Source: Gammaproteobacteria bacterium
GTDB taxonomy: Bacteria; Pseudomonadota; Gammaproteobacteria; Steroidobacterales; Steroidobacteraceae
Direction of reading: 5' to 3'
Length of the DNA: 32,749 nt
Assembly (NCBI GenBank): GCA_005878835.1
Contig: VBMV01000082.1
Location: 1-32,749 of the forward strand
Positions within the stretch are counted from its first letter, which is position 1; each line of letters opens with the position of its first letter. A program made the position numbers and the translations under genes. The notes under the pieces were generated by a model. It did not search any database. It was given only the letters and a program-made list of their open reading frames with translations, and was not told the origin of the DNA. Below are positions 1 through 24,063 of the stretch, in pieces.

Positions 1-2
1 CG

Positions 3-893
3 GACTGGCCGTTGCTGCTGCCGATGGTGAAGAGTGCTTCACGCGCGATGGATGCCGTCCAGCGGCTCGCCCGGGAGCAGTGGGGACTCGCGATCGCGAG
101 GTTCACGGTGACCGGCGCATCCAAGCGCGGCTGGACATCGTGGCTCACCGCGGCCGTCGATCCCCGCGTGGCGGGCGTAGCTCCGATGGTCATCGACATG
201 CTCAACATGAAGGCGCAGATCGAGCTGCAGCGGCAGACGTTCGGCGGGCTGTCTGAGGAAATCAAGGATTATGAGGAGATTCGGCTCCCCGAGCGCATCG
301 ATTCGCCGACCGGGCGGGAGCTGGTGGCGATAGTCGACCCGTACAGCTACCGTGACCGGCTGCTGCAGCCCAAGCTCATTCTGCTCGCAACCAACGATCC
401 GTACTGGCCACTCGATGCGCTGAACGTCTATTGGAATGGGCTGCCGGAACCGAAGCGGGTTCTTTATCTCCCCAATCAGACGCACGGCCTGCGGGATGTC
501 GACCGCCTCATCGGTAGCCTCGCCGCCCTGAACCGCTATGCGGAGGAGGGCAAAGCGCTGCCAGAAGTGTCCGGAGCTTTCACGCAGCGCAACGGCCGGC
601 TTGAGCTCACCGTGCGCACCGATCGGACGCCTGCGCGTGTGCTGGCGTGGAGCGCGCTGAGCGCGACGCGCGATTTTCGTCAGGCACGCTGGACCTCTCG
701 CCGATGCAGCCGCTCGGGCGGTCTCTACGAATGCGAGGCGCGCACGCCGGACGACGCCTACGCAGCCCTGTACGCCGAAGCCGTGTTCCACGATCGCGGC
801 GAGCATGGCTTTTCGCTTTCGACGACGGTTCATATCAGCAGCGGCCCGCAGGCTGATCATCGGACTGCACGGGTCGACCGCGGGCATCGATGA
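3..893 (+). CDS. PqaA-like alpha/beta hydrolase, 5' end missing
   Basis: This is the C-terminal part of a PhoPQ-activated pathogenicity-related (PqaA) type alpha/beta hydrolase. The frame is open to the left window edge, so the N-terminus and any signal peptide lie outside. Visible are the nucleophile elbow GASKRGWTSWL, with Ser as the expected nucleophile; an acidic-residue region, ATNDPYWPLDAL, after a beta strand; and a histidine motif, NQTHGL, giving a plausible Ser-Asp-His triad. The tail FSLSTTVHI, close to the stop, resembles the usual end of the family, so the 3' end looks intact. PqaA homologues are exported proteins of poorly known substrate. No neighbour in the window suggests a specific role. 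Confidence 0.85.
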   Translation, partial: DWPLLLPMVKSASRAMDAVQRLAREQWGLAIARFTVTGASKRGWTSWLTAAVDPRVAGVAPMVIDMLNMKAQIELQRQTFGGLSEEIKDYEEIRLPERIDSPTGRELVAIVDPYSYRDRLLQPKLILLATNDPYWPLDALNVYWNGLPEPKRVLYLPNQTHGLRDVDRLIGSLAALNRYAEEGKALPEVSGAFTQRNGRLELTVRTDRTPARVLAWSALSATRDFRQARWTSRRCSRSGGLYECEARTPDDAYAALYAEAVFHDRGEHGFSLSTTVHISSGPQADHRTARVDRGHR

Positions 894-1371
894 GCTCCGC
901 GCTACACCGCACTCCGTCGATCTTGGCGAGCGAGTCTGGGAGGCTCGAGAGTCTTCGCGTAGTATTCCCCTTCCATATACAGTGTGACCTCCAAGCGTGT
1001 CGACGCTGCGAGGACTCCGAGTCGCCGGATGACCGCCTACCTCATCACGTTCAGGCCAGAAGCCGAAAGCCCGAAGGAGGGCGCATCGCTCCCCGAGTTG
1101 CAGCGGCGGGCCCGCTGGCCGGTGTCGATGGCCGGGCCGGCGGTCTCCTCAAGATGTGCCGCTGCCACGGCGGCAGTCACGCCTTTCCGTGGCACGGCGC
1201 CGGCTCGCGGCCGGGAACGTCGACTTGGCCCGGCTGGAGCCGAAGGGGTATCTCGGGTCCATCCGCGTCGTGGCCGAGCCCACGCAGATGCTGCTCTACA
1301 GCGAGCGCGGCTTCGTCGAGGCGGCTCTGATGAGAGCCGCCGGGAACATCGCAAGTATTGTTGGTAGCGGG

Positions 1372-1384
1372 CGCCCGAGTTGGG
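1372..1384 (-). repeat. degenerate tRNA-fMet 3'-end fragment
   Basis: The plus strand reads TGGTAGCGGGCGC, one mismatch from the first 13 bases of the complement of the tRNA-fMet gene at 11851. It is followed by CCGAGTT instead of the CCGCTTCGAGC of repeat R1, so any R1 here is too diverged to call. It may mark the oldest and leftmost unit of the tRNA-anchored array, or be chance. Confidence 0.4.
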
Positions 1385-1491
1385 TTTCGAACGACCCTGA
1401 ATTCATTGATATTCCGCTCAGGTAGTCACGGGCTAAGTCGGGATTCCCTTCGCAGCCTCCGCAGCGCTGCGGTCCTCGGGGTTCCCCCGTA

Positions 1492-1526
1492 TCCCCTAGC
1501 GTTCATTGCCATCGACACCATCGGGG
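1492..1526 (+). repeat. 35-bp imperfect direct repeat, left copy
   Basis: This copy and the one at 2141-2175 match at 28 of 35 positions, sharing TCCCCT, GCGTTCA and CATCGACAC in the same order and spacing. The left copy lies just upstream of the ribosome binding site of the secreted protein at 1535. The right copy contains its stop codon. Confidence 0.65.
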
Positions 1527-1534
1527 GAGAGACC

Positions 1535-2158
1535 ATGTCAAGTCTCGAACTAGCGAACTACTTAGGCGTGTCAGCGTTACTGCTGTTGCTGGGATCGACG
1601 GCACAGGCACAGGCTGCGACGCCACCGGTTGGCCAGCCCCTTTTCGGGGAGTGGCATCGCCTCAATTCCACCGGGAGTCCGCCAGCAGCCTCAGAGCACG
1701 AGGTGATGCACTTCGGGGTCGAAGGGACCACTTGGGCCGGTCGTTACGACAAACACCCCGAGCCCGCTCTCGCATTTGCGAACCCGCCGGAGGGTAGGTA
1801 CGGAGTCTTCATCGGTGCGGACGCGGCGAGCTTCGTCTGCCAACCTGCCTTCCCCTTCCATCCGTGTCAGAACGTGGTGGAGGTTGCCGAGGGTACGACG
1901 CGGTACTACCCGCCGCATCAACCGCCCTTCGACGTCCGTCAGCAAACCATCGTAGTACGGGACGAAAACGGTCAAGAGGTGATGTGGCAGTACTGGATTA
2001 GTCCGGGGAACTTCGCTTGCCCGTGGTATCGCACTTTCGATGAAGCGCTGGCGGCGAATCCCTTTCCTACTCATGGAGATTGCGTCTTCCCGGTCACGAT
2101 CCATGACCAGCGGGAGCAACCCTCCGTGCGGGGAACTCCGTCCCCTGGCGTTCACTAG
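1535..2158 (+). CDS. secreted protein of unknown function
   Basis: About 207 residues. I chose the ATG at 1535 because GGGGGAGAG precedes it and a signal peptide follows directly: LGVSALLLLLGSTAQAQA has a hydrophobic core and an AQA-type cleavage site. The open frame extends further upstream, but that part is not protein-like. The mature part has several cysteines (SFVCQPAFPFHPCQ, FACPWYR, HGDCVFP), suggesting disulfides in the periplasm or outside the cell, plus a short Pro/Tyr-rich patch (YYPPHQPPF). I do not recognise the family. The gene sits alone between two copies of a 35-bp repeat and its last codons lie inside the right copy. Confidence 0.65.
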   Translation: MSSLELANYLGVSALLLLLGSTAQAQAATPPVGQPLFGEWHRLNSTGSPPAASEHEVMHFGVEGTTWAGRYDKHPEPALAFANPPEGRYGVFIGADAASFVCQPAFPFHPCQNVVEVAEGTTRYYPPHQPPFDVRQQTIVVRDENGQEVMWQYWISPGNFACPWYRTFDEALAANPFPTHGDCVFPVTIHDQREQPSVRGTPSPGVH

Positions 2159-2175
2159 CATCGACACAATCCGGC
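2141..2175 (+). repeat. 35-bp imperfect direct repeat, right copy
   Basis: Partner of the repeat at 1492-1526. The stop codon of the secreted protein (TAG, 2156-2158) lies within it, so the repeat supplies the protein's C-terminus. Confidence 0.65.
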
Positions 2176-2189
2176 GAGCTCGCGTGGTG

Positions 2190-2711
2190 CCGCTCCGCCT
2201 GGAAACGCTCGGCGGTGGGCTCCAAGCAGCGGCGGTGCGCGTTGAGCCATGTCGGGCAGATCGGCACGCACCAGGACGAGCCACTGCGTATCGGTTCCGC
2301 AAAGCCTGTGGGACGGCGTGAAGAAGCGGCAGGGCGAAATCGAGTGCATGAGCGTGACCCATCCGCGGCGCGCTCAGGCGCAACGGCCGGCTGCCGCGGT
2401 ATCTGCCGTCGGGGCTGCTAGTCTGTGGGCAATGCGGCGGCACGTCCCGTCGCGTGAATACCCGAGAGTACGGTTGCGCGAGCCACGTCGACGGCGGTCA
2501 TGCGGCGTGTACGAACGGCATCCGGGTCCGGGGCGAGCTCGCCGAGAGCAAGCTGTTGGAGGAACTGCAGCGCGAGATTCTCAGCCCGGAGGGCATCGCG
2601 CTGCTCGAGAGCAAGGTCCGCGAGAACATGCGCGGGCGTAGGCAACTCTGCTGCATGGTGCGAGGATCTCTTGTCGAAGCGGTCGGGCCGCGGTCGGTCA
2701 ACTTGCAGTAG
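2190..2711 (+). pseudogene. serine recombinase remnant (zinc ribbon part, frameshifted)
   Basis: The best-preserved frame, about 2358-2711, contains the zinc beta-ribbon of large serine recombinases: SGLLVCGQCGG, then EYGCASHVDGGHAACTNGIR, giving the two Cys pairs, followed by the usual helix ELAESKLLEELQREILSP. The upstream piece SLWDGVKKRQGEIE, which in the family precedes the ribbon, is in another frame near 2310. A third frame holds an even earlier EPLRI piece. No catalytic serine domain is seen, and the coiled-coil end stops early. At least two frameshifts and both ends missing make this a dead gene. It shows a phage or integrative element once lay here. Large serine recombinases do not usually use tRNA 3' ends, so it need not be related to the tRNA-anchored array. 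Confidence 0.75.
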
Positions 2712-3403
2712 CGGCAAGTGCGTTCTCGCGGCATGCACCCTTGTCCAAAATATCCAGCACAGCCGAGCTGAGGCCCGCGCCACGCTATTCCGGCCGATAC
2801 AGAAGGTGCCGAAGGCGAGCCTCCTGAATCACAGCATCTGTCCGGCGCACACGGCTCGATCCCGTTGTTTTGTCCAAGCTTTCCATCAATCGCCACGACA
2901 TCACAAGGAGCTATTCGGGTTGGGTCTTCGGAGAATTCAATGTTGCGACCGTTTCGGCGTGTTGGCCGTGTTGCATTGCGGCGCTCGCTTCCCCGACAGA
3001 CATGGAGGTTTCCCCGCATTGACAGCCGCAGCATTGAGGCATCTAGTGCGCCGACACGAGGCGGCGCGGCCTGCGCACGCGGATGCCGACTGAACGCGGG
3101 CACACCTCTCGTTCTGCTCGCATACTCAGTACAGTGGCCGCGGGGGGAATTTAAAGAAACGCTCGGTGACCGCTCGCGCCGGCGGGTGACAGACTCGTCG
3201 GCGCAGTTGCATTCGAGGGAGTACCTTCCCGCGTTTCGGTTCAATGAACGCGTTAGACCAAAAGAAGTCAGAACACCCGACCCGAACGGACACTTCGAGC
3301 TGGGAGGGACGCTCGCCACGCGCGGGCGCGTTCGGCAGGCTTGCCGTGTCCGGAATGGTCGACTTTTACGTTTGCATAACATTAATCAAACTGGGGGAAG
3401 CCT
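2712..3403. other. gene-less stretch between recombinase remnant and HbpS-like gene
   Basis: There are long open frames on both strands, but none has convincing composition or a recognisable domain. They look like products of high GC. A minus-strand stretch around 2900 reads IAPCDVVAIDGK, faintly recalling transposases with an AIDGK motif, but too little matches to call one. The last bases hold the ribosome binding site of the next gene (GGGGA before 3404) and an AT-rich stretch around 3370-3390 that may carry its promoter. Confidence 0.4.
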
Positions 3404-4192
3404 ATGACAATCTCGATAACACGCGTGATTGCGATTCTTTTCGGTGCGGCAGCCACGACTTGGGGCGCGGGGGCGGCCTTTGCTCAAGATACAGAACAGT
3501 GTGCCGGACTGCCCAGCCAGGGTGCCCTGAAGAATGCTCTGACGCTCGCGCGCAATCAGGCCAATGGGGGCTTCAATCTCGACATGTGGGCCACGGTCGT
3601 GAATCGCGATGGACTGGTATGCGCAGTGGCCTTCACCGGTTCAGATCGCGGGCAGCAATGGCCCGGGAGCCGCGTCATCTCGGCTCAGAAGGCGAATACC
3701 GCTAATGCATTCAGCCTGCCGGGCCTCGCACTATCCACGGCCAACTTGTACTCGGCAGTCCAGCCCGGCGGCAGCCTGTACGGCTTGCAGCACAGCAATC
3801 CTGTGAACACCGCGGTGGCTTACCTTGGTCCGGCAACGAACTTTGGCACCGGCAGTGACCCAATGGTGGCTCATCGTATCGGTGGTGTGAATGTCTTCGG
3901 AGGCGGACTCGCTTTATACAACAGCGCCCACGTCCTGGTCGGCGCCATCGGCGTGAGTGGTGACAGTTCCTGCGCGGATCACAACATCGCGTGGCGAACC
4001 CGGAATGACTTGGGTTTGGATCACGTACCCGCGGGAGTGAGTGGAGATCCAGCACGCCCGGATAACATCGTGTACGACATCACCCCTCAGCATGGCCAGC
4101 AGGAGGGAGTCAGCGCGAGTGGCTGGGGGCACCCGCAATGCAGCCCCGTCGCGACAGCGCTTGCTGGGAGCCTGCCTGCCACGAGCCGCTGA
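3404..4192 (+). CDS. secreted HbpS/GlcG-like (DUF336) heme-binding-type protein
   Basis: 262 residues with a clear Sec signal peptide (hydrophobic segment, cleavage near GAAFA-QD). The mature part fits the GlcG/HbpS/PduO C-terminal fold (DUF336): an early helix LKNALTLARNQA, a strand WATVVNRDGLVCAV, a mid-domain SAQKANTANAFS in the place of the usual substrate-proximal helix, and the late glycine-rich strand VLVGAIGVSGDSSCADH. Relatives are extracellular heme-binding or heme-degrading proteins or cofactor-handling enzymes of uncertain chemistry. The start is supported by CTGGGGGAAGCC just upstream. It stands alone. Family placement is fairly secure; the actual ligand is unknown. Confidence 0.8.
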   Translation: MTISITRVIAILFGAAATTWGAGAAFAQDTEQCAGLPSQGALKNALTLARNQANGGFNLDMWATVVNRDGLVCAVAFTGSDRGQQWPGSRVISAQKANTANAFSLPGLALSTANLYSAVQPGGSLYGLQHSNPVNTAVAYLGPATNFGTGSDPMVAHRIGGVNVFGGGLALYNSAHVLVGAIGVSGDSSCADHNIAWRTRNDLGLDHVPAGVSGDPARPDNIVYDITPQHGQQEGVSASGWGHPQCSPVATALAGSLPATSR

Positions 4193-4386
4193 GCGGAACG
4201 TCGGTTTCCAAGATCGCAGAAAGGGGTTTGCGCGTGAGCGCGGACCCCTTGCGGTCGGCTGCCCGTCGCGCACGTAGCGTGCAGGTTGCGTCTCGACGGT
4301 CGTTGCTCACGGGCTCCGCGGGTGGCTCCGAGAATCTGTTCCGCAGCAATCAGTCTGTCGAGTAACCCCGGATTTATTGAATCGGT
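4193..4386. other. short spacer left of the first R1 repeat
   Basis: No gene seen. The last bases, AATCGGT, directly precede the tRNA-fMet 3'-end fragment at 4387. Confidence 0.5.
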
Positions 4387-4586
4387 TGGTAGCGGGGGCG
4401 CGCTTCGAGCTTTATAGCGCCTATTCCATCCGCGTGCCGGCGGTTCCGGCCAGCGTCATCGCGGCGGAATGAGACGCCTTGCAACGGTTTGCATTCTTGT
4501 GCGCCAGGAGGGCAGGGACATTCAGGTCCTCCGCGTCCTCCGCGTCCGCCGCCAACGGAGCGATCGCGGAACCGGCGGACGGGGAC
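4387..4586 (+). repeat. repeat R1, copy A
   Basis: It begins with the 13-base tRNA-fMet end fragment TGGTAGCGGGGGC, continues with CGCTTCGAGCTTTATAGCGC, and runs to TTGCAACGGTTTGCAT (4479-4494). A second conserved block, GAGCGATCGCGGAACC, starts at 4558. By eye about 12 of the first 108 positions differ from copy C. Its 16 bases at 4479-4494 are the exact inverted complement of 5303-5318 at the far end of the same unit. It lies upstream of the DUF3018/MazF pair. Confidence 0.85.
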
Positions 4587-4630
4587 GAGACAGCGGCCAG
4601 GTGCCGACCCCGATCATCTGATAAGCGTTG

Positions 4631-4664
4631 CATGTAACACTGAAAGAGTGCATGCTGTTACATG
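4631..4664. promoter_or_regulatory. inverted repeat, likely toxin-antitoxin operator
   Basis: CATGTAAC (4631-4638) and GTTACATG (4657-4664) form a perfect 8-bp inverted repeat with an 18-bp spacer, 25 bases before the antitoxin start. Autoregulation by antitoxin binding to such a palindrome is the rule in type II modules, so this is the likely operator. Confidence 0.55.
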
Positions 4665-4688
4665 TCACTTTCTTCGGGAGAATCGATT

Positions 4689-4925
4689 GTGAGTCCAGCC
4701 CGTGTCAGGAACGGTTTGCGCACCCCGGTCGCCCAACGTGTGCAGAAGCACCGCAAGGCACTACGCGCCGCGGGCCTTCGTCCCATCCAGATCTGGGTCC
4801 CCGATGTTCGCTCGAAGCGCTTTGTCGCCCAGGCCCACCGGCAATCGCTCGCGGTCGCCAACAGCCCGTATGAGAAGGATGATCAAGCCTTCATCGACTC
4901 CATCTCCGACTGGGACACGACATGA
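4689..4925 (+). CDS. antitoxin, DUF3018 / MazE-family type
   Basis: 78 residues. I chose the GTG at 4689 because GGGAG lies 8 bases upstream; an in-frame ATG at 4662 overlaps the inverted repeat. The sequence has the DUF3018 pattern: TPVAQRVQKHRKALRAAGLR, then PIQIWVPDVRS, then an acidic tail ending DDQAFIDSISDWD. In the family the basic N-terminal part binds DNA and the acidic tail wraps and neutralises MazF. Its stop overlaps the MazF start (ATGA), so the two are translationally coupled. It is the cargo of the first tRNA-anchored unit. Confidence 0.85.
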   Translation: MSPARVRNGLRTPVAQRVQKHRKALRAAGLRPIQIWVPDVRSKRFVAQAHRQSLAVANSPYEKDDQAFIDSISDWDTT

Positions 4926-5257
4926 AACGTGGCGACATCTGGACTGTCGCCGGCGGTCCGGGCTACGCCGGCAAACCCCGGCCCGTTATGGTCCTGCAGG
5001 ACAACAGGTTCGACGCCACGGAGTCCATCACGATTTGCCCCTTCACGGGTGATCCAACAGCCGCCGAACTGTTCCGTATTCCGATTGAGCCCACTGCGAC
5101 CAACGGTCTTAAGAGCCCGTCCCGCCTCATGGTCGACAAAATCACCACTGTCGCAAAGAGCAAGGTGGGCAAACAGATCGGACGTCTCGATGACGAGGAC
5201 GTCGTGCGCTTAAACCGCGCAGTCGTCGTGTTTCTCGGGCTGGCTGGCTCGAGCTAG
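4922..5257 (+). CDS. MazF/PemK-family endoribonuclease toxin
   Basis: 111 residues, the usual length for MazF. It begins KRGDIW and has the conserved basic segment GKPRPVMVLQ, then a Thr/Cys strand SITICPFTGDP in the place of the T-rich strand near the active site, SPSRLMVDKITTV, and a final helix DDEDVVRLNRAVVVFLGL. MazF toxins cut RNA at short motifs and are inhibited by the neighbouring antitoxin. Start overlap with the antitoxin is 4 bases. All core elements seem present, so it is probably functional. The cleavage motif cannot be inferred. Confidence 0.9.
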   Translation: MKRGDIWTVAGGPGYAGKPRPVMVLQDNRFDATESITICPFTGDPTAAELFRIPIEPTATNGLKSPSRLMVDKITTVAKSKVGKQIGRLDDEDVVRLNRAVVVFLGLAGSS

Positions 5258-5302
5258 GCGCTGCGGAAGGCGTGCGCGCCGCTCCCAGTGGAGGACTCGA
5301 TG

Positions 5303-5332
5303 ATGCAAACCGTTGCAAATGGTAGCGGGGGC
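5303..5332 (-). repeat. unit end with tRNA-fMet 3'-end fragment
   Basis: ATGCAAACCGTTGCAA (5303-5318) is the exact inverted complement of 4479-4494, and AT then GGTAGCGGGGGC completes a copy of the tRNA-fMet 3' end (5320-5332). CGTTGCAAATGGTAGCGGGG is shared with the true tRNA gene end at 11842-11861, so this end has the same junction as the living tRNA. Confidence 0.8.
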
Positions 5333-5557
5333 GTGCTACCTCTTGATCTACCAGACGTGCACCTGATACGAACTCGAACATAACGCAAGGCTCCCTGGTG
5401 GCTCGGCACCATTGTCAGCCGGCAGTACCCGGTCGCCGAAGTGGTGGTCTATCACGCGGATCGTTTGTCCGCCCTTGAGAGGCGCGAGGCGGCACTCAAA
5501 TCGGGAATATACTGCGAGCGCTCCTGCCTCGTTGAGCGCCGAGTTTCAGGGTTACCG

Positions 5558-6505
5558 ATGGGCCTAAAGCTGGTCGCAATCTGGCGTCGCCTGCCAGTCC
5601 TAGTGCGCGCCCCGATTGTTGCCTTTGTCGTGCTCAACGTCGGGTCGATACTCGCCGTCTTGCCGATATTCGGAAATACGAAATTCCTGACCAGCGTCCC
5701 GTGGGCGCTTCCGGGCACGATGGCCATTATGTGGGCGTTTTGGCTGTACGCTACCGGCAGCGGCTATCCGTCGGCGACGCGCGCGTATCGTGCCACGATG
5801 ACGCGCGACAAGACGGTCTCGGCATCGGTTTGGCGCGCAGCCATCCCGGCGGTTATCGCCTCGCTGATTGTCACTTGGAGCTTGCGCCTAGTGCTGCCCA
5901 GCGTCGTTCCAGTCGCGCCACCAAGTCTCCCGATCGACATCAGCGTCTACCCGGTCACGACCGTAATTGGTCTCGCGCTCGCGATAGCCTTATCGGCCGG
6001 AGTCGTCGAGGAGATCGCGTTCCGCGGCTATCTGCAGAAGTCGCTTGAGGATGCCTACGGGATAGTACCGGCGCTAATCCTAACCGGCATCGCATTCTGG
6101 TCCGCTCACGCGGACAAGGTGACCGTCAGTCACTTGCCGTTCCATCTCGCGGTCAGCGTATTGCTCGGAACTGCGACCTACCTGACGCGTTCGTTGCTGC
6201 CCGCCATGGTCGGGCACGTACTGGGAGATGCACTTCTTCTCCCAGCATACGTGTATCACCGTCCGCATGTCGCCTGGTCGTTGCTCACCGCTCGACCTGT
6301 TTGGGAAGGTCATGCGAATGCAACCGTTGTCGATCGGCTGCACGTCATCGTGACCTCTGTGCGACCCAGTCTTTTGCTCGAGCCGAGTTCGCATCCTTTG
6401 GCCGTGGCCGGGTGGCTTCTGATCGTGAGTTCGATCGCTGCGGTCTTCGCCTTGCGACGACTCGCGCGCATTGCCGCCATCGCGAGCACGCACCGACAGC
6501 GGTGA
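5558..6505 (+). CDS. CPBP-family intramembrane metalloprotease (CAAX/Abi type)
   Basis: About 315 residues with 7-8 hydrophobic membrane segments. The three CPBP (Abi) motifs are visible in order: EEIAFRGYL in the EExxxR motif, an aromatic-rich segment IAFWSAHAD with the second-motif His, and HVLGDALLL, where an N/D after His is usual. These residues build the zinc site of Rce1-like proteases. Bacterial members act in peptide maturation, bacteriocin self-immunity or abortive infection. I prefer the ATG at 5558 (AGGG upstream); an in-frame GTG at 5441 would add a polar, unlikely N-terminus. It is the only gene in its tRNA-bounded unit, and the unit's end lies within 15 bases of the stop. A defence or immunity role is inferred from context only. 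Confidence 0.85.
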   Translation: MGLKLVAIWRRLPVLVRAPIVAFVVLNVGSILAVLPIFGNTKFLTSVPWALPGTMAIMWAFWLYATGSGYPSATRAYRATMTRDKTVSASVWRAAIPAVIASLIVTWSLRLVLPSVVPVAPPSLPIDISVYPVTTVIGLALAIALSAGVVEEIAFRGYLQKSLEDAYGIVPALILTGIAFWSAHADKVTVSHLPFHLAVSVLLGTATYLTRSLLPAMVGHVLGDALLLPAYVYHRPHVAWSLLTARPVWEGHANATVVDRLHVIVTSVRPSLLLEPSSHPLAVAGWLLIVSSIAAVFALRRLARIAAIASTHRQR

Positions 6506-6507
6506 AG

Positions 6508-6530
6508 AATGCAAAATTGGTAGTGGGGGT
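6508..6530 (-). repeat. degenerate unit end with tRNA-fMet 3'-end fragment
   Basis: AATGCAAAAT then TGGTAGTGGGGGT (6518-6530). The tRNA part has two mismatches to the 13-base fragment. The preceding AATGCAAA fits the intact unit end ATGCAAACCGTTGCAAA after an internal deletion. It closes the CPBP unit, and the next fragment is only 58 bases on. Confidence 0.6.
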
Positions 6531-6575
6531 GCGCTTGTGGCGTTGCTTGCTGCGGCTCCCGTTTGCCTGATTAGT

Positions 6576-6763
6576 TGGTAGCGGGGGGTCGCTACGAGCT
6601 TTATAGCGCCTATCCCATCCGGGTGCTGGCGGTTCCCGCCAGCGTCTTCGCGACGCGATGAGACGCTTTGCAACGTCTTGCATTTGCGTGCGCCAGCAGG
6701 GGGACGCGGATCCTCCGGCAGTCGCCGTCCTAGTTGAGCGATGGCGGAACTGGCGGATGGGGA
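6576..6763 (+). repeat. repeat R1, copy B
   Basis: It starts with the tRNA-fMet fragment TGGTAGCGGGGGG. About 9 of the first 112 bases differ from copy C, and the run TCTTCGCGACGCGATGAGAC onward is identical in both. AGCGTCT and AGACGCT within it form a perfect 7-bp stem around TCGCGACGCGATG. Block 2, GAGCGATGGCGGAACTGG, lies at 6736-6763. Copies B and C have the same length (188 bp). It precedes the AbrB/MazF pair. Confidence 0.85.
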
Positions 6764-6813
6764 TCAGACGCCGAGCCGGCGGGCGCCGACGGGCACCCGG
6801 GAAATCCGCTTTC

Positions 6814-6852
6814 TTGACGGGAGCCATCCAATGTATATACTTGTTTATACAT
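6814..6852 (+). promoter_or_regulatory. promoter with overlapping palindromic operator
   Basis: TTGACG (6814-6819), a 16-bp spacer and TATACT (6836-6841) form a good sigma-70 promoter. A perfect inverted repeat, ATGTATA (6831-6837) and TATACAT (6846-6852), covers the -10 element. Binding of the antitoxin or toxin-antitoxin complex there would repress the operon. GGAGG follows 10 bases before the antitoxin ATG. Confidence 0.65.
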
Positions 6853-6876
6853 GCTTGGCGCAGGAGGTAACTACCT

Positions 6877-7131
6877 ATGGCAAAGAGGGCAACCCTCACG
6901 GTTCAACAGTGGGGGAATAGTCTGGCGGTACGCATCCCGGCGGCCGTAGCCCGATCCGCCCGGTTTGTGGTGGGCCAACCGGTGGAGCTGTCCGTCGGTG
7001 AAGAGGGAGTACTAGTCAAACGGGCCGGTAGGCCGAAATTGACGCTGGCACAGAAGCTTGCTGTGTTTGATCCCGCTCAGCACGGCGGCGAAGTGATGGC
7101 TACGTATCGCATAGGCGCCGAGGAACTTTGA
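6877..7131 (+). CDS. AbrB/MazE-type antitoxin
   Basis: 84 residues with the swapped-hairpin AbrB fold signature of MazE: QQWGNSLAVRIPAAVARSA followed by VGQPVELSVGEEGVLVKR. The C-terminal part (KLAVFDPAQHGGEVMATYR) is the toxin-binding tail, here less acidic than usual. The strong site AGGAGG before the ATG supports the start. Its stop overlaps the toxin start (TGATG). It is unrelated in sequence to the DUF3018 antitoxin of the neighbouring unit. Confidence 0.9.
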   Translation: MAKRATLTVQQWGNSLAVRIPAAVARSARFVVGQPVELSVGEEGVLVKRAGRPKLTLAQKLAVFDPAQHGGEVMATYRIGAEEL

Positions 7132-7496
7132 TGGCTGGGCGCCTGTCGTGGAGTCCGAGTCGCGGTGACATGATCTGGATCGACTGCAGTCCGCAGGTCG
7201 GGCGGGAGATGAAGGACGTACATCCCTTGCTGGTGCTGTCTCCGCGGGAATTCAATGTGCGCACCGGCATCGTGATAGGTCTGCCGATGACGACGGCGCG
7301 CTACAACGAGACCAACCCGTTCGCGATTCGTTTCGTAGGTCCGAAGGGTGCAGTGAGCTACATCCTCGGGCATCAACCGAAGTCGTTTGATTGGAGAGCG
7401 CGCGCAGCCAAGCCGCATCCGTGGAAGCAGGTGCCCGAAGACACGTTTGGGCTCGCGTGCGAAACACTTAACCAGATCATCTTGATTGGCAGCTGA
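7131..7496 (+). CDS. MazF/PemK-family endoribonuclease toxin
   Basis: 121 residues; the ATG at 7131 shares one base with the antitoxin stop. It begins with the MazF core SPSRGDMIWIDCSP, then HPLLVLSPREFNVRTGIVIG, a strand with LPMTT in the active-site position, and FAIRF. A segment KSFDWRARAAKP matches the conserved basic region before the last helix, in the EndoA/ChpB style. It is a ribonuclease toxin checked by the upstream AbrB-type antitoxin. It differs clearly from the MazF at 4922, so the two units did not arise by simple duplication of cargo. Confidence 0.9.
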   Translation: MAGRLSWSPSRGDMIWIDCSPQVGREMKDVHPLLVLSPREFNVRTGIVIGLPMTTARYNETNPFAIRFVGPKGAVSYILGHQPKSFDWRARAAKPHPWKQVPEDTFGLACETLNQIILIGS

Positions 7497-7605
7497 TGAC
7501 GCGGTCTAGACCCAAACTGTCAGAGTCGCACCAGCCGCACGACAGGCGGACTATCCAGCACGGGTCGTTAACGACACCCTGCTCGGGATGGAGGGTCCTT
7601 GACTT

Positions 7606-7793
7606 TGGTAGCGGGGGCCCGCTTCGAGCTTTGTAGCGCCTATTGCATCCGGGTGCCGGTGGTTCCGGCCAGCGTCTTCGCGACGCGATGAGACGCTTTG
7701 CAACGTCTTGCATTCACGCGCGTCAGGAAAACAGGCATACACGCGCCCTCCCGCGTGCGCCGGCGAACTGAGCGATGGCGGAACGGCGAACGG
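7606..7793 (+). repeat. repeat R1, copy C
   Basis: It begins with TGGTAGCGGGGGC, then CCGCTTCGAGCTTTGTAGCG. It has the same 7-bp stem AGCGTCT/AGACGCT as copy B. TTTGCAACGT (7697-7706) is the exact inverted complement of 8667-8676 at the other end of the unit. Block 2 lies at 7770-7793. It precedes the HigB/HigA pair. Confidence 0.85.
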
Positions 7794-7926
7794 GTAGGGG
7801 CAAGCAGTAGCACCGGGCAATCGCTGGTGCCTGTCCATGTCGGCGATGGCCGAGATGCTGGCGAAATCTAGGGCTTGCACGATTATGCCCGAGTTAACGA
7901 GTTCGTTTGGCGGTTAAGCCCGAGCC
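7794..7926. other. spacer between R1 copy C and the HigB promoter
   Basis: No gene seen here; it carries no obvious further repeat. Confidence 0.4.
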
Positions 7927-7955
7927 TTGCTGCATACCGGTAAACGGGATAAACT
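7927..7955 (+). promoter_or_regulatory. candidate promoter of higB-higA
   Basis: TTGCTG (7927-7932), 17 bases, TAAACT (7950-7955), with the palindrome TACCGGTA in the spacer, which could be an operator. It ends 8 bases before the HigB start codon, so translation would begin very near the transcript end, which is a reason for caution. Confidence 0.4.
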
Positions 7956-7962
7956 TATTGGC

Positions 7963-8247
7963 ATGGCAATTCAAGGGTTCAAGTGCGCCGATACACAGGA
8001 ACTCTTTGAAACGGACAGGTCCCGGCAGTTTGGATCTATTCGTAAGCTTGCGACGCGAAAGCTGGGGATGCTTGATGCGGCGGCGACACTGAAGGACCTG
8101 AAGTCGCCGCCGGGAAACCGACTTGAGGCGTTGACCAGGGATAGAGCGGGACAACACAGCATACGGATTAATGATCAGTGGCGAATCTGCTTTGTTTGGA
8201 CGGAGGCGGGTCCAACGGACGTAGAGATCACAAAGCACTACCAGTAG
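7963..8247 (+). CDS. higB: HigB-type toxin (RelE superfamily)
   Basis: 94 residues, typical HigB length. It has the family signature: GFKCADTQELFET at the start, ATRKLGMLDAAATLKDL, then the very conserved PPGNRLEAL and AGQHSIRINDQWRICFVW, ending VEITKHY. HigB toxins cleave mRNA on the ribosome. The catalytic basic and aromatic residues near the C-terminus (RINDQWR, HY) are present. The toxin gene precedes the antitoxin gene, as is normal for HigBA and the reverse of MazEF. It is in the third R1-headed unit. Confidence 0.93.
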   Translation: MAIQGFKCADTQELFETDRSRQFGSIRKLATRKLGMLDAAATLKDLKSPPGNRLEALTRDRAGQHSIRINDQWRICFVWTEAGPTDVEITKHYQ

Positions 8248-8258
8248 GAGTGACGGCT

Positions 8259-8576
8259 ATGGGTTTCAAGAACGGCATGCGACCGGTGCACCCGGGCGAG
8301 GTGCTCAGCGAGGAGTACCTCAAGCCCCTGGGCATGAGCGTGAACGCGCTCGCTAAGGCCCTACACCTGTCGCCTTCGCGAGTGAACGACATCGTGTTAG
8401 AGCGTCGCGGTATTAGCGCGGACACCGCGGTGCGCCTAGAGCGCTACTTTGGTAGCAGCGCGCAGTTCTGGCTCAACCTGCAGTCTGCTTACGACCTTCG
8501 AAAAGCGGAGCGATCCGCAGAAACGCGAAAAGCCGTACGCGCGATCGAACCGCGAGAGACGGAATCAGCAGCCTGA
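8259..8576 (+). CDS. higA: HigA-type antitoxin (XRE/HTH)
   Basis: 105 residues; start chosen at the ATG at 8259 after TAGGAG. It has the HigA N-terminus RPVHPGEVLSEEYLKPLGMS, then a helix-turn-helix NALAKALHLSPSRVNDIVLE with RRGISADTAVRLERYFG, and SAQFWLNLQSAYDLR. It binds and neutralises HigB and represses the operon. It starts 11 bases after the toxin stop. Confidence 0.95.
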   Translation: MGFKNGMRPVHPGEVLSEEYLKPLGMSVNALAKALHLSPSRVNDIVLERRGISADTAVRLERYFGSSAQFWLNLQSAYDLRKAERSAETRKAVRAIEPRETESAA

Positions 8577-8666
8577 CAGGCGATGAGTAACTGGTCGGCT
8601 CCGTCTCCTCGACAGGAGCCTGCCCACGGGTTCACGGACGTTGCACCCGGGCGCATAGCGATGGAC

Positions 8667-8689
8667 ACGTTGCAAATGGTAGCGGGGGC
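8667..8689 (-). repeat. unit end with tRNA-fMet 3'-end fragment
   Basis: ACGTTGCAAA (8667-8676) inversely repeats 7697-7706 of R1 copy C; TGGTAGCGGGGGC (8677-8689) is the tRNA fragment. The junction GTTGCAAATGGTAGCGGGGG is identical to that at the intact tRNA gene. Confidence 0.8.
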
Positions 8690-8951
8690 GCGATTCCGAC
8701 TAATGACACGCTCGTTATTCCGTTCTCGCGCGCTGACCGCCGCCGCAAGATTGCCCGCGTCCAGATTCCCGAGCACTGTGGTAACGGCCATCGGCTGACA
8801 GTTGGCAATGTTCGAATAGACCAGCGCGAGCGCCGATGGCGGTGCCGGCAGTGTGGTAACGACCGCGCTGCGGCATTCAGGGATCGGCAACGGACAGGCT
8901 GAGTGCGCTCGCATGGTCAGGAGCATGCTCCCACCGGCTCGGTATGCCGCC

Positions 8952-9069
8952 TTTCGCAACGGATGAAGTGGCCTTGACTCGGATGTTCATGCGAAGACTG
9001 CTCGAGGCGCCAGGACAGTGGCGCAACGACTTGCAGCGGTCCGCACCGAAATGCATCGCGCACCGTGGT
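8952..9069 (+). repeat. repeat R2, left copy
   Basis: It matches 10835-10953 along its whole length, roughly 85% by eye, sharing CGCAACGGATGAA, TGGCCTTGACTCGG, ATGCGAAGACTGCTCGAGGC and GCACCGAAATGCATCGCGCA. It differs from R1 but has a similar TTGCAGCGGTCCGCACCGA element (9031-9049), related to the inverted-repeat element of the unit ends. Confidence 0.8.
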
Positions 9070-9346
9070 AGAGCCGGCGCCACGCGCTGCAATCGAATCT
9101 GTCTCCCGATCAATACCGCAATCTGCTGCTCCGCGCTTCCGCGCTTGCAAGGCGTTGCAGGAGCTAGCCGCGCTACCTGCCGGCTGCGGGAAGACTACTG
9201 GACTGGCAAGGTAATTGCGCTCGAGCTGACGGCGCCTCACTCTCAGATGCAAACGCGCGGCCGCCGTCTTCCGGGTGCCGTGCTGAGACGCCCTTGAGCG
9301 CGCAAGCGGTTTACATAATAGGTACCAGTCGTGTGCAAGCGCAGAC

Positions 9347-9361
9347 ACAAGTGTTACTTGT
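9347..9361. promoter_or_regulatory. perfect 15-bp palindrome, possible operator
   Basis: ACAAGT-GTT-ACTTGT, about 110 bases before the ORF at 9471, in an AT-richer tract. No regulator that would bind it is recognised. Confidence 0.35.
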
Positions 9362-9470
9362 ACTGTGTCGTTGGCCGAAGACGTTTTGATCGAGACACGT
9401 CGACAACCTAACCTCCTCAGTGTCTGCCACGGACTAAGTTGCTGCACATACTGAGCAATTGTCCAAGAGA

Positions 9471-9839
9471 ATGGTTTCCATGGAGATGGTGCGTTTGCGC
9501 TGGAAGAGTCAATATTCCTCCAAGGTGGAGGAACTGTTGGAATCGTATATCTCGCAGTCTGAAGTCGTGCCGAGGGGCGCCTACCGGATTCGCGAGCCCG
9601 ACTCGGTCCCACGGGAGGTGCGAAAGCCTCTCATTCAGGCAGCGAAGGAGGGTCAGACCTGGTCGTGCCGGGCTCACGGTCTTCATACATGGCTGTTCAC
9701 CTGCAACATGTCTCGTCCCTTGTCACGCGAGCGCGGAGCGCCAGTGCTGCAGGTGAGCCTGTACGGCGACGACGGCGGATTGCGCGATTGCGGGACCTGG
9801 ATACCTGATCAGAGCGGTAAATGGTGTCGCAGCGCCTGA
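9471..9839 (+). CDS. unknown small protein in the tRNA-anchored array
   Basis: About 122 residues from the ATG at 9471 (AAGAGA just upstream); a second ATG at 9480 is possible. The sequence is protein-like: a helical start (YSSKVEELLESYISQ), then EVRKPLIQAAKEGQTWSC and a C-terminal half rich in Trp, Cys and Gly (LYGDDGGLRDCGTWIPD). No membrane segment or signal peptide is seen. I do not recognise the family. It lies upstream of the kinase-like gene on the same strand and between the two R2 repeats. Confidence 0.5.
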   Translation: MVSMEMVRLRWKSQYSSKVEELLESYISQSEVVPRGAYRIREPDSVPREVRKPLIQAAKEGQTWSCRAHGLHTWLFTCNMSRPLSRERGAPVLQVSLYGDDGGLRDCGTWIPDQSGKWCRSA

Positions 9840-10027
9840 GAGTGCCGGCTTCGGGGGGCACTGTCCTCTTCAGTCCGGAAACTTCGGCACCCGCTCGATC
9901 GCCTGGTAGCGCGGCTCCTGGCACAGAGGCTCCGGGAACCGGTCCGCTTTTAGGAACCCCAGAGATGGATCACGCAGTTGTTGAGCGGCGCTTCGGGGGG
10001 CATATGAGCGTGGAACCAAGGAAATTG

Positions 10028-10849
10028 ATGAGCGAGGGCTGGACGAGCTGGCAGGGGCACGTCGTCAACGGCGTGTTTCCTTTGGGACGCTATCTCGGTT
10101 GCTCGAATCACAGCGGCGTCTTCCTCACAGTGTCAGCGGCGCGACGCCCTCCGGAGGTCGCCGTCAAACTCATTCCCACCAATCGGGCCCTAGCGGAATC
10201 ACAACTGCCGCGGTGGAAGCGGGCTGGCGCCCTCGCTCATCCTCACCTGCTTCGCCTGTGGGAATGGGGCGGGTGCCAACTGGACGGATTGCCCTATCTG
10301 TACACCGTTATGGAGTACGCCGACCAGACTCTTGCGCAGCTGTTGCAACACCGCGCCCTGACGGACGACGAAGCGCGAGAGATGCTGCTGCCGACCCTGG
10401 ACGCACTGGCGTTTTTGCACGGCCGAGATTTGGTGCAAGGCCAGTTGAAGCCGGCAAACATCCTGGTTGTTGGAGATCAGCTGAAGCTGGCAAGCGACAC
10501 GATACGTCACGTCAATGCAGGCACGATGAGCGCTAACACGCCCACCGTGTACGACCCTCCGGAAGCCCGGCACGGGAGCAGTTCCACTGCTGATGACATC
10601 TGGGCGCTCGGCGTCAGCCTGTTCGAAGCGCTCACTCGCTGTCCGCCATCGGGCTTGGGCGAGCCCAGGGAAGCCATCGTGCTGCCGGCCGATTTCTCCT
10701 CGGCATTCCGCGAAGTTGTAGTGCGCTGTCTGAGCCCCAGCCCGCAGGATCGTCCGAGCGTGACGGAGCTCGTAGCTTGGGCCCGCGGGCGATCAGCGGG
10801 GTCTGCGCCGGCTGCGACCATTCACATCGCAGATTTTCGCAACGGATGA
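10028..10849 (+). CDS. protein-kinase-like protein lacking catalytic residues (likely pseudokinase)
   Basis: About 273 residues. I chose ATG 10028 because AAGGA lies 5 bases upstream and MSEGWTSWQGHVVNG fits the usual beginning of this family; in-frame starts at 9821 or 9965 would add Pro/Gly-rich sequence. The Hanks-type fold is visible: VAVKLIP with Lys47, HPHLLRLWEWG, YTVMEYADQTLAQLL as hinge and helix D, and DDIWALGVSLFEALT as helix F. However, the catalytic loop reads QGQLKPANIL, so the HRD aspartate is Gln139, and the DFG position reads SDT (156-158). It probably binds rather than phosphorylates, or acts by an atypical route. No membrane segment is present. Its last codons and stop lie inside R2, so the repeat shapes the C-terminus. 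Confidence 0.8.
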   Translation: MSEGWTSWQGHVVNGVFPLGRYLGCSNHSGVFLTVSAARRPPEVAVKLIPTNRALAESQLPRWKRAGALAHPHLLRLWEWGGCQLDGLPYLYTVMEYADQTLAQLLQHRALTDDEAREMLLPTLDALAFLHGRDLVQGQLKPANILVVGDQLKLASDTIRHVNAGTMSANTPTVYDPPEARHGSSSTADDIWALGVSLFEALTRCPPSGLGEPREAIVLPADFSSAFREVVVRCLSPSPQDRPSVTELVAWARGRSAGSAPAATIHIADFRNG

Positions 10850-10953
10850 AATGGCCTTGACTCGGGTGTTTCATGCGAAGACTGCTCGAGGCGCAAGGGC
10901 AGGGATGTAACGCCGTGCAACGGTCTGCACCGAAATGCATCGCGCAACGTGGT
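10835..10953 (+). repeat. repeat R2, right copy
   Basis: Second copy of R2. The first 15 bases encode the end and stop codon of the kinase-like gene. TGCAACGGTCTGCACCGA (10916-10933) is the inverted complement, with one mismatch in 18, of 11831-11848 next to the tRNA gene. Confidence 0.8.
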
Positions 10954-11257
10954 CAAACTGCGGCCGCAGCCATCCTGCACCCCTCAGCGAATGTTCAGAT
11001 CGCCGGCCCGATTGGGGGCTCGCTGCGAGGGGGCAGGGCTCTCGTCAGGTTACCGGTCTACGGGCGCGGCGATCATTCGAATCCATCGCGTGATTGCGCG
11101 TGTCGTTCAGCATGCGCGACGAACACGCCAAGATTCCGCGCAATTAATCGCACCCTGCCTTCCTTAGTTCGGATGTCTTGAGAGACGCCCGAGAACTTTC
11201 ATCTATCGCCGATTCACGTACGCTTCGATTGGGAGCCTGCTCAAATGGGGGCTAGTC
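10954..11257. other. gene-less 300 bases
   Basis: No supported gene. The final bases before 11258 (GGGGGCTAGTC) give a moderate ribosome binding site for the next ORF. Confidence 0.4.
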
Positions 11258-11446
11258 ATGAGGACACTGTTTCCCGGCGGTCATATCGGTCCTAACCGTT
11301 ACCCGCACTGCAAGGTCAGCGATAGTGGTCATCTGTGTTTTTGGGACACGAAGCTTGCGATGTGGGTGCCGATGTTTCGGCTGACCAACGCTCAGCTGTT
11401 TGAGTGGATGAAGAGCATCAAGGTGCTCGACTTGGAGTTGCGATGA
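11258..11446 (+). CDS. 62-residue protein of unknown function
   Basis: It begins MRTLFPGGHIGPNRYPHC and continues with SGHLCFWDTKLAMWVPMFRL and a helix QLFEWMKSIKVLDLEL. Rich in aromatic residues, with two Cys and two His in its first half. No signal peptide. The composition and the 4-base stop/start overlap with the next ORF favour a real gene. I do not recognise it. It is the unit nearest the tRNA gene, between R2 and the tRNA 3' end. Confidence 0.5.
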   Translation: MRTLFPGGHIGPNRYPHCKVSDSGHLCFWDTKLAMWVPMFRLTNAQLFEWMKSIKVLDLELR

Positions 11447-11664
11447 AAAAGGACAGAGTTTTGATGGAATCAAAGAGGCTGGAGCACCATAACGCTCGCG
11501 TCGCCGCCAAGCGCGCCAGGGGCAAGGCTGCCGGTCACCGGTCACCATCTGGAGCTGACCGGACCATCGAGCGCCACGGGCGGCAGATCAAGGCGATCCA
11601 AGGATTCAAGCCGCAAGCGCGGCGGCCGGTGCCGGCGGAGGCTTCCGCGCGCAAGTCCGCCTGA
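11443..11664 (+). CDS. 73-residue very basic protein of unknown function
   Basis: It starts MKKDRVLMESKRLEHHNARV and is strongly basic throughout, with Lys/Arg/His-rich helices and an Ala/Pro/Arg-rich tail; it may bind nucleic acid. The ATG overlaps the preceding stop (ATGA), suggesting coupling as in toxin-antitoxin and similar two-gene modules. No family is recognised, so that role is only a guess. Confidence 0.5.
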   Translation: MKKDRVLMESKRLEHHNARVAAKRARGKAAGHRSPSGADRTIERHGRQIKAIQGFKPQARRPVPAEASARKSA

Positions 11665-11830
11665 CCCTGTGCCTCGGCGGACGTCCGCTTCGCGCCATCT
11701 CAGTGTCCGCTTCCTGCGCGCGTGACCGGTTGCTCGGGGTCGAAAGGCGGCGGTGGCCAGTACCGAAGCGCTCTTCGACCATCGCGCGGGATGCGTGCAG
11801 GAGGTGCCCGACGCAGCAACCCGGTGCAGA

Positions 11831-11850
11831 TCGGTGCATACCGTTGCAAA
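11831..11850 (-). repeat. unit end abutting the tRNA-fMet gene
   Basis: TCGGTGCATACCGTTGCA (11831-11848) followed by AA abuts the tRNA 3' CCA. Its inverted complement occurs in R2 at 10916-10933 (17 of 18). This is the same layout seen at 5303 and 8667, so the newest unit would be the one directly attached to the living tRNA. Confidence 0.7.
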
Positions 11851-11927
11851 TGGTAGCGGGGGCAGGATTTGAACCTGCGACCTTCGGGTTATGAGCCCGA
11901 CGAGCTGCCAGACTGCTCCACCCCGCA
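11851..11927 (-). tRNA. initiator tRNA-fMet (anticodon CAU)
   Basis: A 77-base cloverleaf with encoded CCA. Read on the minus strand: acceptor strand TGCGGGG, D stem GAGC/GCTC, anticodon stem TCGGG/CCCGA around CTCATAA, T stem GCAGG/CCTGC with loop TTCAAAT, and 3' acceptor CCCCGCT-A-CCA. Initiator hallmarks are three G:C pairs at the foot of the anticodon stem, an A11:U24 pair and an unpaired first base. The mismatch is U1:U72 instead of the common C1:A72. The last 12-13 bases are copied several times to the left, making this the anchor of the array. Confidence 0.97.
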
Positions 11928-22466: not shown

Positions 22467-22776
22467 GATGCCAATCCCTGTGCCATCCTGAGGCGATGAT
22501 CTCCCAACCGGACGGGCGCCGCAACGCGGGACCGGCCGGGTCTTGTGTCGAATTGTCGTCACGCTTCACAGGCCTGGCGGGCGAATTGGACGCGCCCGGG
22601 CAAAGTCTGTACAGTGCGCGGCGCCAAACGTCCTTACAGTGCTCGGTCAGCACCGTTTCGCTCGCAGTCTGTGCCTCGCCGGCGCACTTCGATTTACCAT
22701 TAACTCCAAGCCTCGCGTCTGACCGCCGCAGCCAAAAGCTGCCGGGCGAGTTCGATAACAGAGGTTTTCCTTTTAT
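22467..22776. other. intergenic region between divergent lipoprotein and helicase genes
   Basis: No gene seen. A small hairpin, GTGCT/AGCAC, lies at 22639-22653. The last bases hold GAGG upstream of the helicase start, and the AT-rich TTTTATATG start region. Confidence 0.4.

Positions 22777-24063
<1,287 letters not shown>

Follow-up and report, generated by a model that had tools for sequence, protein, structure and literature searches.

Introduction

The textbook route for stacking single-gene cassettes in bacteria is the integron, whose arrays hold many small co-oriented cassettes, are rich in toxin–antitoxin pairs and undergo reordering. Staphylococcal cassette chromosome (SCC) elements, which use the Ccr recombinases, rely on a serine recombinase to enter a conserved gene at its 3' end and form tandem composites that include ccr-less elements; their target, rlmH, is a protein gene, and the elements are much larger than the units considered here. 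In this study, we analysed a 32,749-nucleotide contig of a gammaproteobacterium of the family Steroidobacteraceae (hereafter the window; GenBank assembly GCA_005878835.1, contig VBMV01000082.1, positions 1 to 32,749), in which small units lie in series at the 3' end of a tRNA-fMet gene. With a probability that we put at about two in three, this array consists of small, site-specifically inserted elements stacked at the tRNA-fMet 3' end and mobilised by a group of large serine recombinases (LSRs) specialised on tRNA-fMet. The locus is thus best read as a series of LSR elements, most of them non-autonomous, that probably accreted in tandem; it would work like an integron cassette array and is not an integron.

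The closest published case is that of the Dehalococcoides ssrA genomic islands with their serine recombinases DsiB and DsiA (PMC3146451), which resembles the present locus in that a serine recombinase is found at the 3' end of a stable RNA gene. According to the accessible part of that report, the tandem islands are bounded by a 20-bp ssrA repeat, 15 islands have no integration module, and at attL the direct repeat is embedded in the dsiB homologue; a comparison of SCC with DsiB is drawn in the same report. The Dehalococcoides islands are distinct from the array described here in that their target is the tmRNA rather than tRNA-fMet and in that each module-bearing island has six genes, two of them for serine recombinases. 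No duplicate islands occur within a strain, and the same part of the report describes neither an array of one-operon units nor recurrence of units across species (PMC3146451).

Decayed elements that keep their att sites are also known to stack at a single tRNA 3' end, by accretion of cis-mobilisable elements (CIMEs), integrative and conjugative elements (ICEs) and integrative and mobilisable elements (IMEs) (PMC5704250). Units 1–6 of the window, counted outward from the tRNA, correspond to the definition of a CIME, being att-bounded and having no recombinase domain among the open reading frames (ORFs) scanned. By comparison, CIMEs, ICEs and IMEs at tRNA genes use tyrosine integrases, as far as the consulted part of that source extends (PMC5704250). 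In the Methylophilaceae, the additive flexible genomic island fGI-2 at tRNA-Lys likewise repeats the final 20 bases of its tRNA and has a variable content of 330 bp to 42 kb and 1 to 63 coding sequences; the sections of the report at hand name no enzyme and do not trace units from species to species (PMC10872708). Searches of openly licensed PMC papers brought up no LSR cassette array at tRNA-fMet.

Results

A co-oriented array at the tRNA-fMet 3' end

The core TGGTAGCGGGGGC, which comprises the last 13 bases of tRNA-fMet, occurs exactly at 4387, 5320, 7606, 8677 and 11851 (the tRNA itself), with one mismatch at 1362 and 6576, and with two mismatches at 6518. All of these copies, including the two-mismatch one, lie on the plus strand. 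At one mismatch or fewer the window contains 7 matches against 0.11 expected, and none of 100 shuffles reaches 7, which bears out the original prediction that copies of the tRNA-fMet 3' end are present here in one orientation. The degenerate outer copy that it described exists as well, but at 1362 rather than at 1372. When three mismatches are allowed, the window gives 26 matches against 18.2 expected and 8 of 100 shuffles reach 26; because this count is near chance, weight is placed only on near-exact copies. From the tRNA outward, the window is organised as follows.

11851–11927, minus strand: tRNA-fMet gene, intact, the presumed insertion target (tRNA-Met(CAT) by ARAGORN; Rfam tRNA at 11854–11927)
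11851–11863, plus strand: 13-bp core, the 3' end of the tRNA gene (motif match)
8690–11850, plus strand: tRNA-adjoining unit with a kinase-like ORF (9821–10849) and unassigned ORFs
8677–8689, plus strand: core, exact; end family B
7619–8676, plus strand: higBA unit, HigB-like ORF 7927–8247 and HTH antitoxin ORF 8178–8576
7606–7618, plus strand: core, exact; end family A
6589–7605, plus strand: mazEF unit, MazE 6877–7131 and PemK/MazF 7128–7496
6576–6588, plus strand: core, one mismatch; end family A
6531–6575, no strand: 45-bp gene-free stretch between two cores
6518–6530, plus strand: core, two mismatches
5333–6517, plus strand: unit with a CAAX-protease-like (Rce1-like) ORF (5441–6505)
5320–5332, plus strand: core, exact; end family C
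4400–5319, plus strand: mazF unit, PemK/MazF 4922–5257, preceded by a small ORF (4702–4925) with no Pfam match
4387–4399, plus strand: core, exact; end family A
4386–4532, no strand: 147-nt repeat with end family A, other copies at 6575 and 7605
1375–4386, plus strand: unit with an HbpS-like ORF (3404–4192)
2358–2708, plus strand: LSR remnant, zinc ribbon (Pfam Zn_ribbon_recom, 1.6e-8)
1362–1374, plus strand: core, one mismatch
1162–1362, plus strand: remnant of an LSR C-terminus running into the core (E value 2.4e-22)
1–1361, plus strand: outermost unit, cut by the contig end, with a PhoPQ_related-like ORF (12–893)

Measured from core to core, the units are 3174, 1071, 1030, 58, 1198, 933 and 3025 bp long. 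One recognisable operon or gene is found in four of them (higBA, mazEF, CAAX-protease-like and mazF), in agreement with the small one-operon units that had been proposed, whereas the units of 58, 3174 and 3025 bp fit that description poorly. The cargo of the window comprises two PemK/MazF proteins and one MazE, a HigB-like toxin alongside an HTH protein, and the CAAX-protease-like, kinase-like and HbpS-like ORFs.

The window contig (C29) belongs to a 4.18-Mb assembly of a genome that is 95% complete. The whole assembly contains 14 exact cores, all inside seven contigs that total 78 kb; the six core contigs besides C29 (C11, C128, C133, C137, C146 and C182; 4.6–12.2 kb) hold nine of them. No exact 13-mer was found outside these seven contigs in this assembly, and the fragment is therefore not scattered over the genome. 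Within each of the seven contigs, copies with at most one mismatch have a single orientation. The array extends past the window end, and on the simplest reading the seven contigs would represent one larger array split by assembly. Among 58 genomes of the genus, one per species (G-numbers below name genomes), 124 exact cores occur in 41 genomes as compared with 23 for the reversed control, and 17 genomes have none; these genomes are often in hundreds of contigs, and the ends of their arrays are frequently broken.

Shared layout, ends and cargo of the units

Loci fetched for holding cores, rather than a random sample, yielded 58 units and 113 sites, and all 58 neighbouring site pairs in them are co-oriented. 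Read in the orientation of the tRNA, a unit opens with a core and a start, continues with its genes, which in the window are transcribed in the direction of the tRNA, and closes with an end and a further core. The median unit length is 1.97 kb, and 29 units are shorter than 2 kb, including four below 100 bp. The ends preceding the core form families, and the starts following it cluster too: at the thresholds used, 108 of 6216 pairs of starts are alike (2 after shuffling), as are 112 of 4005 pairs of ends (0 after shuffling). The three largest end families are A (here, G155 and G160), B (here, G155 and G177) and C (here, G155, G156 and G172). Within this genome, shared ends extend over 100–390 bp at about 70–95% identity. 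Just outside the core, ends that are otherwise unlike have C at position –3 in 80 and A at –5 in 74 of the 91 sites. The sites also have a dyad axis, which passes between the second and third core bases and scores 0.42 as compared with 0.12–0.31 at 23 other axes.

The cargo was surveyed in 41 unit proteins of the genus, hand-picked from ORF lists (25 of 32 families shown). It includes Fic/Doc (4), PIN (4), PemK (3), MazE (2) and one each of CcdB, HigB, FitA-like and Phd/YefM proteins, together with varied single genes. Judged by these predicted products, many cassettes in the genus are toxin–antitoxin pairs.

Duplication, reordering and recurrence of units

By sequence comparison, the units behave as cassettes that are gained, lost and reordered. 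The higBA unit is doubled in this genome, its second copy in C133 being 93.4% identical over the whole length and having a degenerate far (left) core. Two units of C128, X and Y, match G155 at 97–98% over at least 98% of their length and stand there in the opposite order. Unit X is preceded by a family B end in G155 and by a family A end here, so the change occurred at or near the core and not within a shared end. The unit at 1375–4386 matches G160 in two blocks (95–97% identity, 83% of its length), and its counterpart there starts 27 bp from the tRNA core; the units that separate 1375–4386 from the tRNA in the window were not found in the fetched stretch of G160, save for shared ends. The PhoPQ_related-like ORF at 12–893 recurs in C133 (97%) and G160 (98%).

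Furthermore, a Doc unit of about 0.8 kb is present in G020, G057, G147, G156 and G162 (coverage 0.73–1.0, identity 75–92%); it directly adjoins the tRNA in G020 and G147, and the fetched stretches of G057, G156 and G162 contain no tRNA. A Fic unit of 1.56 kb recurs in G003, G014, G167 and G169. Some cores and units are decayed, namely those at 1362 and 6518 and, in C133, the left core of the second higBA unit. The order, content and presence of units thus vary among relatives rather than being fixed, which supports the earlier proposal of serial insertion at tRNA-fMet in small units. In several relatives, contigs end 0–8 bases from an fMet core (G173:C16, G164:C60, and G127:C9 and C11), which could reflect mixed occupancy in the sampled population.

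Large serine recombinases at tRNA-fMet

Searches with the PF07508 profile gave 41 matches in 21 of the 58 genus genomes, of which 13 (in 12 genomes) lie at an fMet core and 28 do not; loci are given for 30 of the 41 matches, and the 13 at cores were assigned by position. In nine of the 12 core LSRs seen as loci, the reading frame crosses the core and terminates within the tRNA gene, which gives the protein the tail GSGGRI; one further LSR (L174) enters the tRNA gene in another frame, and two run through an inner core. In the relatives' loci L165, L166 and L175, the protein has Resolvase, Recombinase and zinc-ribbon domains and its gene adjoins the attachment core. The tail GSGGRI or a close form is also found in other genera (L200, L202, L203, L204, L206, L224, L225, L226 and L227), as is read-through in another frame (L198, L222, L223 and L229), while L195, L196 and L221 lie near the core or tRNA and do not read into it. 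Among 274 genomes of the class, ten have a strong LSR match, and in six of these ten the gene ends in tRNA-fMet.

A tree was built from 59 LSRs with lengths of 350 amino acids or more, and the 28 LSRs labelled fMet fall within one group of 33 (99/98). The label also covers five LSRs that have a core but no tRNA close by and a plasmid LSR that lies 191 bp away from the tRNA; the tree was rooted at its midpoint, and description of the group as a clade rests on that root. The remainder of the group consists of the LSR of Rhizobium phage RR1-A and of four Pro-type LSRs that branch together within it (L167, L169, L197 and L199; tail GRGDRI, or GRGEGI in L197). Two of the Pro-type LSRs end in a called tRNA-Pro(CGG), and L167 and L197 were assigned by their like tails. 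The tree suggests an apparent single switch of target to tRNA-Pro inside the LSR group. Outside the group, three more distant LSRs (L184, L216 and L230) have genes that run antisense into tRNA-Glu or tRNA-Asn, and the other 23 have no such tRNA at their end. Since these distant LSRs also read into their target tRNA, read-through may have arisen more than once.

Two plasmids carry a tRNA-fMet gene with a group LSR beside or overlapping it, namely Ketogulonicigenium vulgare plasmid pYP1 (L221) and a Loktanella salsilacus plasmid (L222). In Rhizobium phage RR1-A (L220), the sequence GTGGTAGCGGGAG near the 3' end of the phage LSR gene resembles the fMet core. Only LSRs below 60% identity were found in phage and plasmid records.

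LSR remnants connect the enzyme and the units

About 80 starts per frame were examined for LSR tails; the best match of the third-frame control had an E value of 0.001, and G003:C65:7428 (E 0.001) was not counted. At seven LSR-less starts, an LSR tail lies in frame and touches the core with an E value of at most 1.2e-4. These are the window site at 1362 (2.4e-22), the tRNA-proximal unit of G169 (3e-15), G014 (4e-12, in the next frame), the Fic unit in both G167 and G169 (1e-7), G157 (7e-6) and G160 (1e-4). The remnant at 1162–1362 is 60% identical to the G156 LSR over 70 aligned columns. The remnant at 2358–2708 is 117 amino acids long, and its reported matches below E 1e-12, including the seven best-scoring, are all LSRs labelled fMet. 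In addition, one cluster of seven ends unites the complete LSR element of G003 (C26:115–11474) with small units of G003, G014, G057, G116 and G169. The LSR tails at LSR-less starts and this shared end cluster indicate that some of the units, if not more, are LSR elements that have been shortened. The original prediction had regarded the lack of an integrase as a general feature of the units; this is unsupported, as relatives carry LSRs at cores and the window itself holds two LSR gene pieces. Another piece of an LSR C-terminus occurs in C128 (L050, 58–555), its best match being to LSRs labelled fMet (E 3e-5).

Discussion

The cores, their orientation, the recurrence and reordering of units, the LSR genes at cores and the LSR remnants are established at the level of sequence, and they suggest a model in which an LSR of the group would recombine a circle with joined ends into the tRNA 3' end. 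Because each unit is flanked by the 13 terminal bases of the tRNA, insertion would restore the tRNA and leave another core copy, the displaced copy marking the far end of the unit. Later insertions, which presumably take place at the tRNA and not at inner sites, would push older units outward. When most of the recombinase gene is lost, as is seen in several cases, the small unit with its cargo, often a toxin–antitoxin pair, keeps its ends and bounding cores. We infer that an LSR of the group, whether resident or newly arrived, could mobilise LSR-less units in trans and that strand exchange would take place at the central CC of the core, at the dyad axis; as CC is not self-complementary, it would fix the orientation of insertion.

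Several observations weigh against this model. LSRs usually join attP to attB, so the model has yet to account for repeated insertion beside a hybrid site. Neither circles nor excised sites were seen, and an intact LSR of the group, the helper, is absent from this 95%-complete genome, whose sole PF07508 match (C181) lies outside the group. No core cluster was found in the six other class genomes and two plasmids that have such an LSR; G317 has one core pair 3.7 kb apart, in two different one-mismatch forms. Most LSR-less starts show no LSR tail, among them the dominant start family here (TTTGCAACG...), for which no LSR parent was found. Unit X here is without the 56 bp that directly follow its core, so that junction has been altered since. 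Finally, three relatives have a tyrosine integrase at tRNA-fMet.

The last of these points is the basis of a rival explanation, in which the array would be the work of a P4-type tyrosine integrase targeting tRNA-fMet, with the units as cis-mobilisable remnants of it, similar to the accretion of ICEs and CIMEs. Integrases of this class classically target tRNA 3' ends, as the accessible parts of two sources state (PMC4383910, PMC5704250). The integrase of G003 (Arm-DNA-bind_3 and Phage_integrase) adjoins tRNA-fMet, and tblastn places close relatives of it beside the tRNA in G012 and G007. We nevertheless consider this origin unlikely, as the three starts and three ends of these islands cluster solely among themselves, and no unit start was seen with tyrosine-integrase remnants, a search dedicated to its pieces at unit starts not having been run. 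The survey of tyrosine integrases covered ten relatives and was compared with the sites by eye, so that weak links may be missed. In this genome, the two integrases of this type lie on C144 and C176 with no core. None of its nine PF00589 matches is on the seven core contigs, and the array therefore also differs from tycheposons, which are defined by a tyrosine recombinase in a tRNA-bounded element. In this regard, the earlier advice to look for a tyrosine recombinase was probably misdirected, given that LSRs occupy these sites in relatives. The tyrosine-integrase islands at tRNA-fMet are L094 (G003:C65), L133 (G012:C217) and L134 (G007:C213), and in G012 an LSR element lies directly behind.

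The array might instead be a relic, made by old insertions of any maker and now duplicated, lost and reshuffled by homologous recombination between its long shared ends. Both the extent and identity of the shared ends in this genome and the decayed cores and units would suit such a history. By comparison, the change of neighbour of unit X maps at or near a core, the Doc units recur in five species and the Fic units in four, and the core is common to many unlike end families, all of which make a mere relic distinctly improbable in our view. Least credible of all is that the array belongs to this genome's integron. A full-length IntI is present (TIGR02249, 451 bits) and IntI occurs in 15 of the 58 genus genomes, including the core-rich G156, G157 and G160; yet 16 intI loci show no core at up to two mismatches, and GTTRRRY lies at or within 12 nt of a core in 1 of 101 sites against 2.4 expected. 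Furthermore, G002, G017, G019, G171 and G180 possess IntI and have zero or one exact core. An integron as the motor of the array was thus rejected. The cassettes resemble those of integron arrays in being gained, lost and reordered, and differ in the two features that define such arrays, since attC-type junction sites are lacking and intI loci carry no core; the original notion of integron-like function without integron sites is thereby supported. The intI gene itself (C67, 8703–9755; locus L055) is complete, and its contig stops 149 bp beyond the gene, leaving its own array unseen. GTTAG-type sites follow intI in several relatives, as judged by eye, and the IntI of this genome seems to belong to an ordinary integron.

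Returning to LSR-driven accretion, a broader proposal can be made, to which we give slightly less than an even chance. The array may represent a second cassette-capture system beside the integron, in which fMet-specialised serine recombinases would serve a pool of one-operon cassettes across many species of the genus, with the tRNA gene as the fixed entry and with cassettes mobile in trans and joined at the central CC. As part of this proposal, the LSR gene would end in the attachment core, and its final codons would come from the site of insertion. If true, this would be another route of cassette stacking, one that uses an unrelated enzyme and has as its anchor a tRNA gene that every cell needs. 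The LSRs of the group provide a testable set with an apparent switch to tRNA-Pro, and, because every unit brings two ends of its own, the arrays are also natural libraries of attachment sites.

Away from the array, positions 22587–23883 of the window are 79% identical to positions 2041–3309 of C137. The C137 copy covers a DEAD-box-helicase-like ORF (named by eye, with no family search) and adjoins a core-bounded unit.

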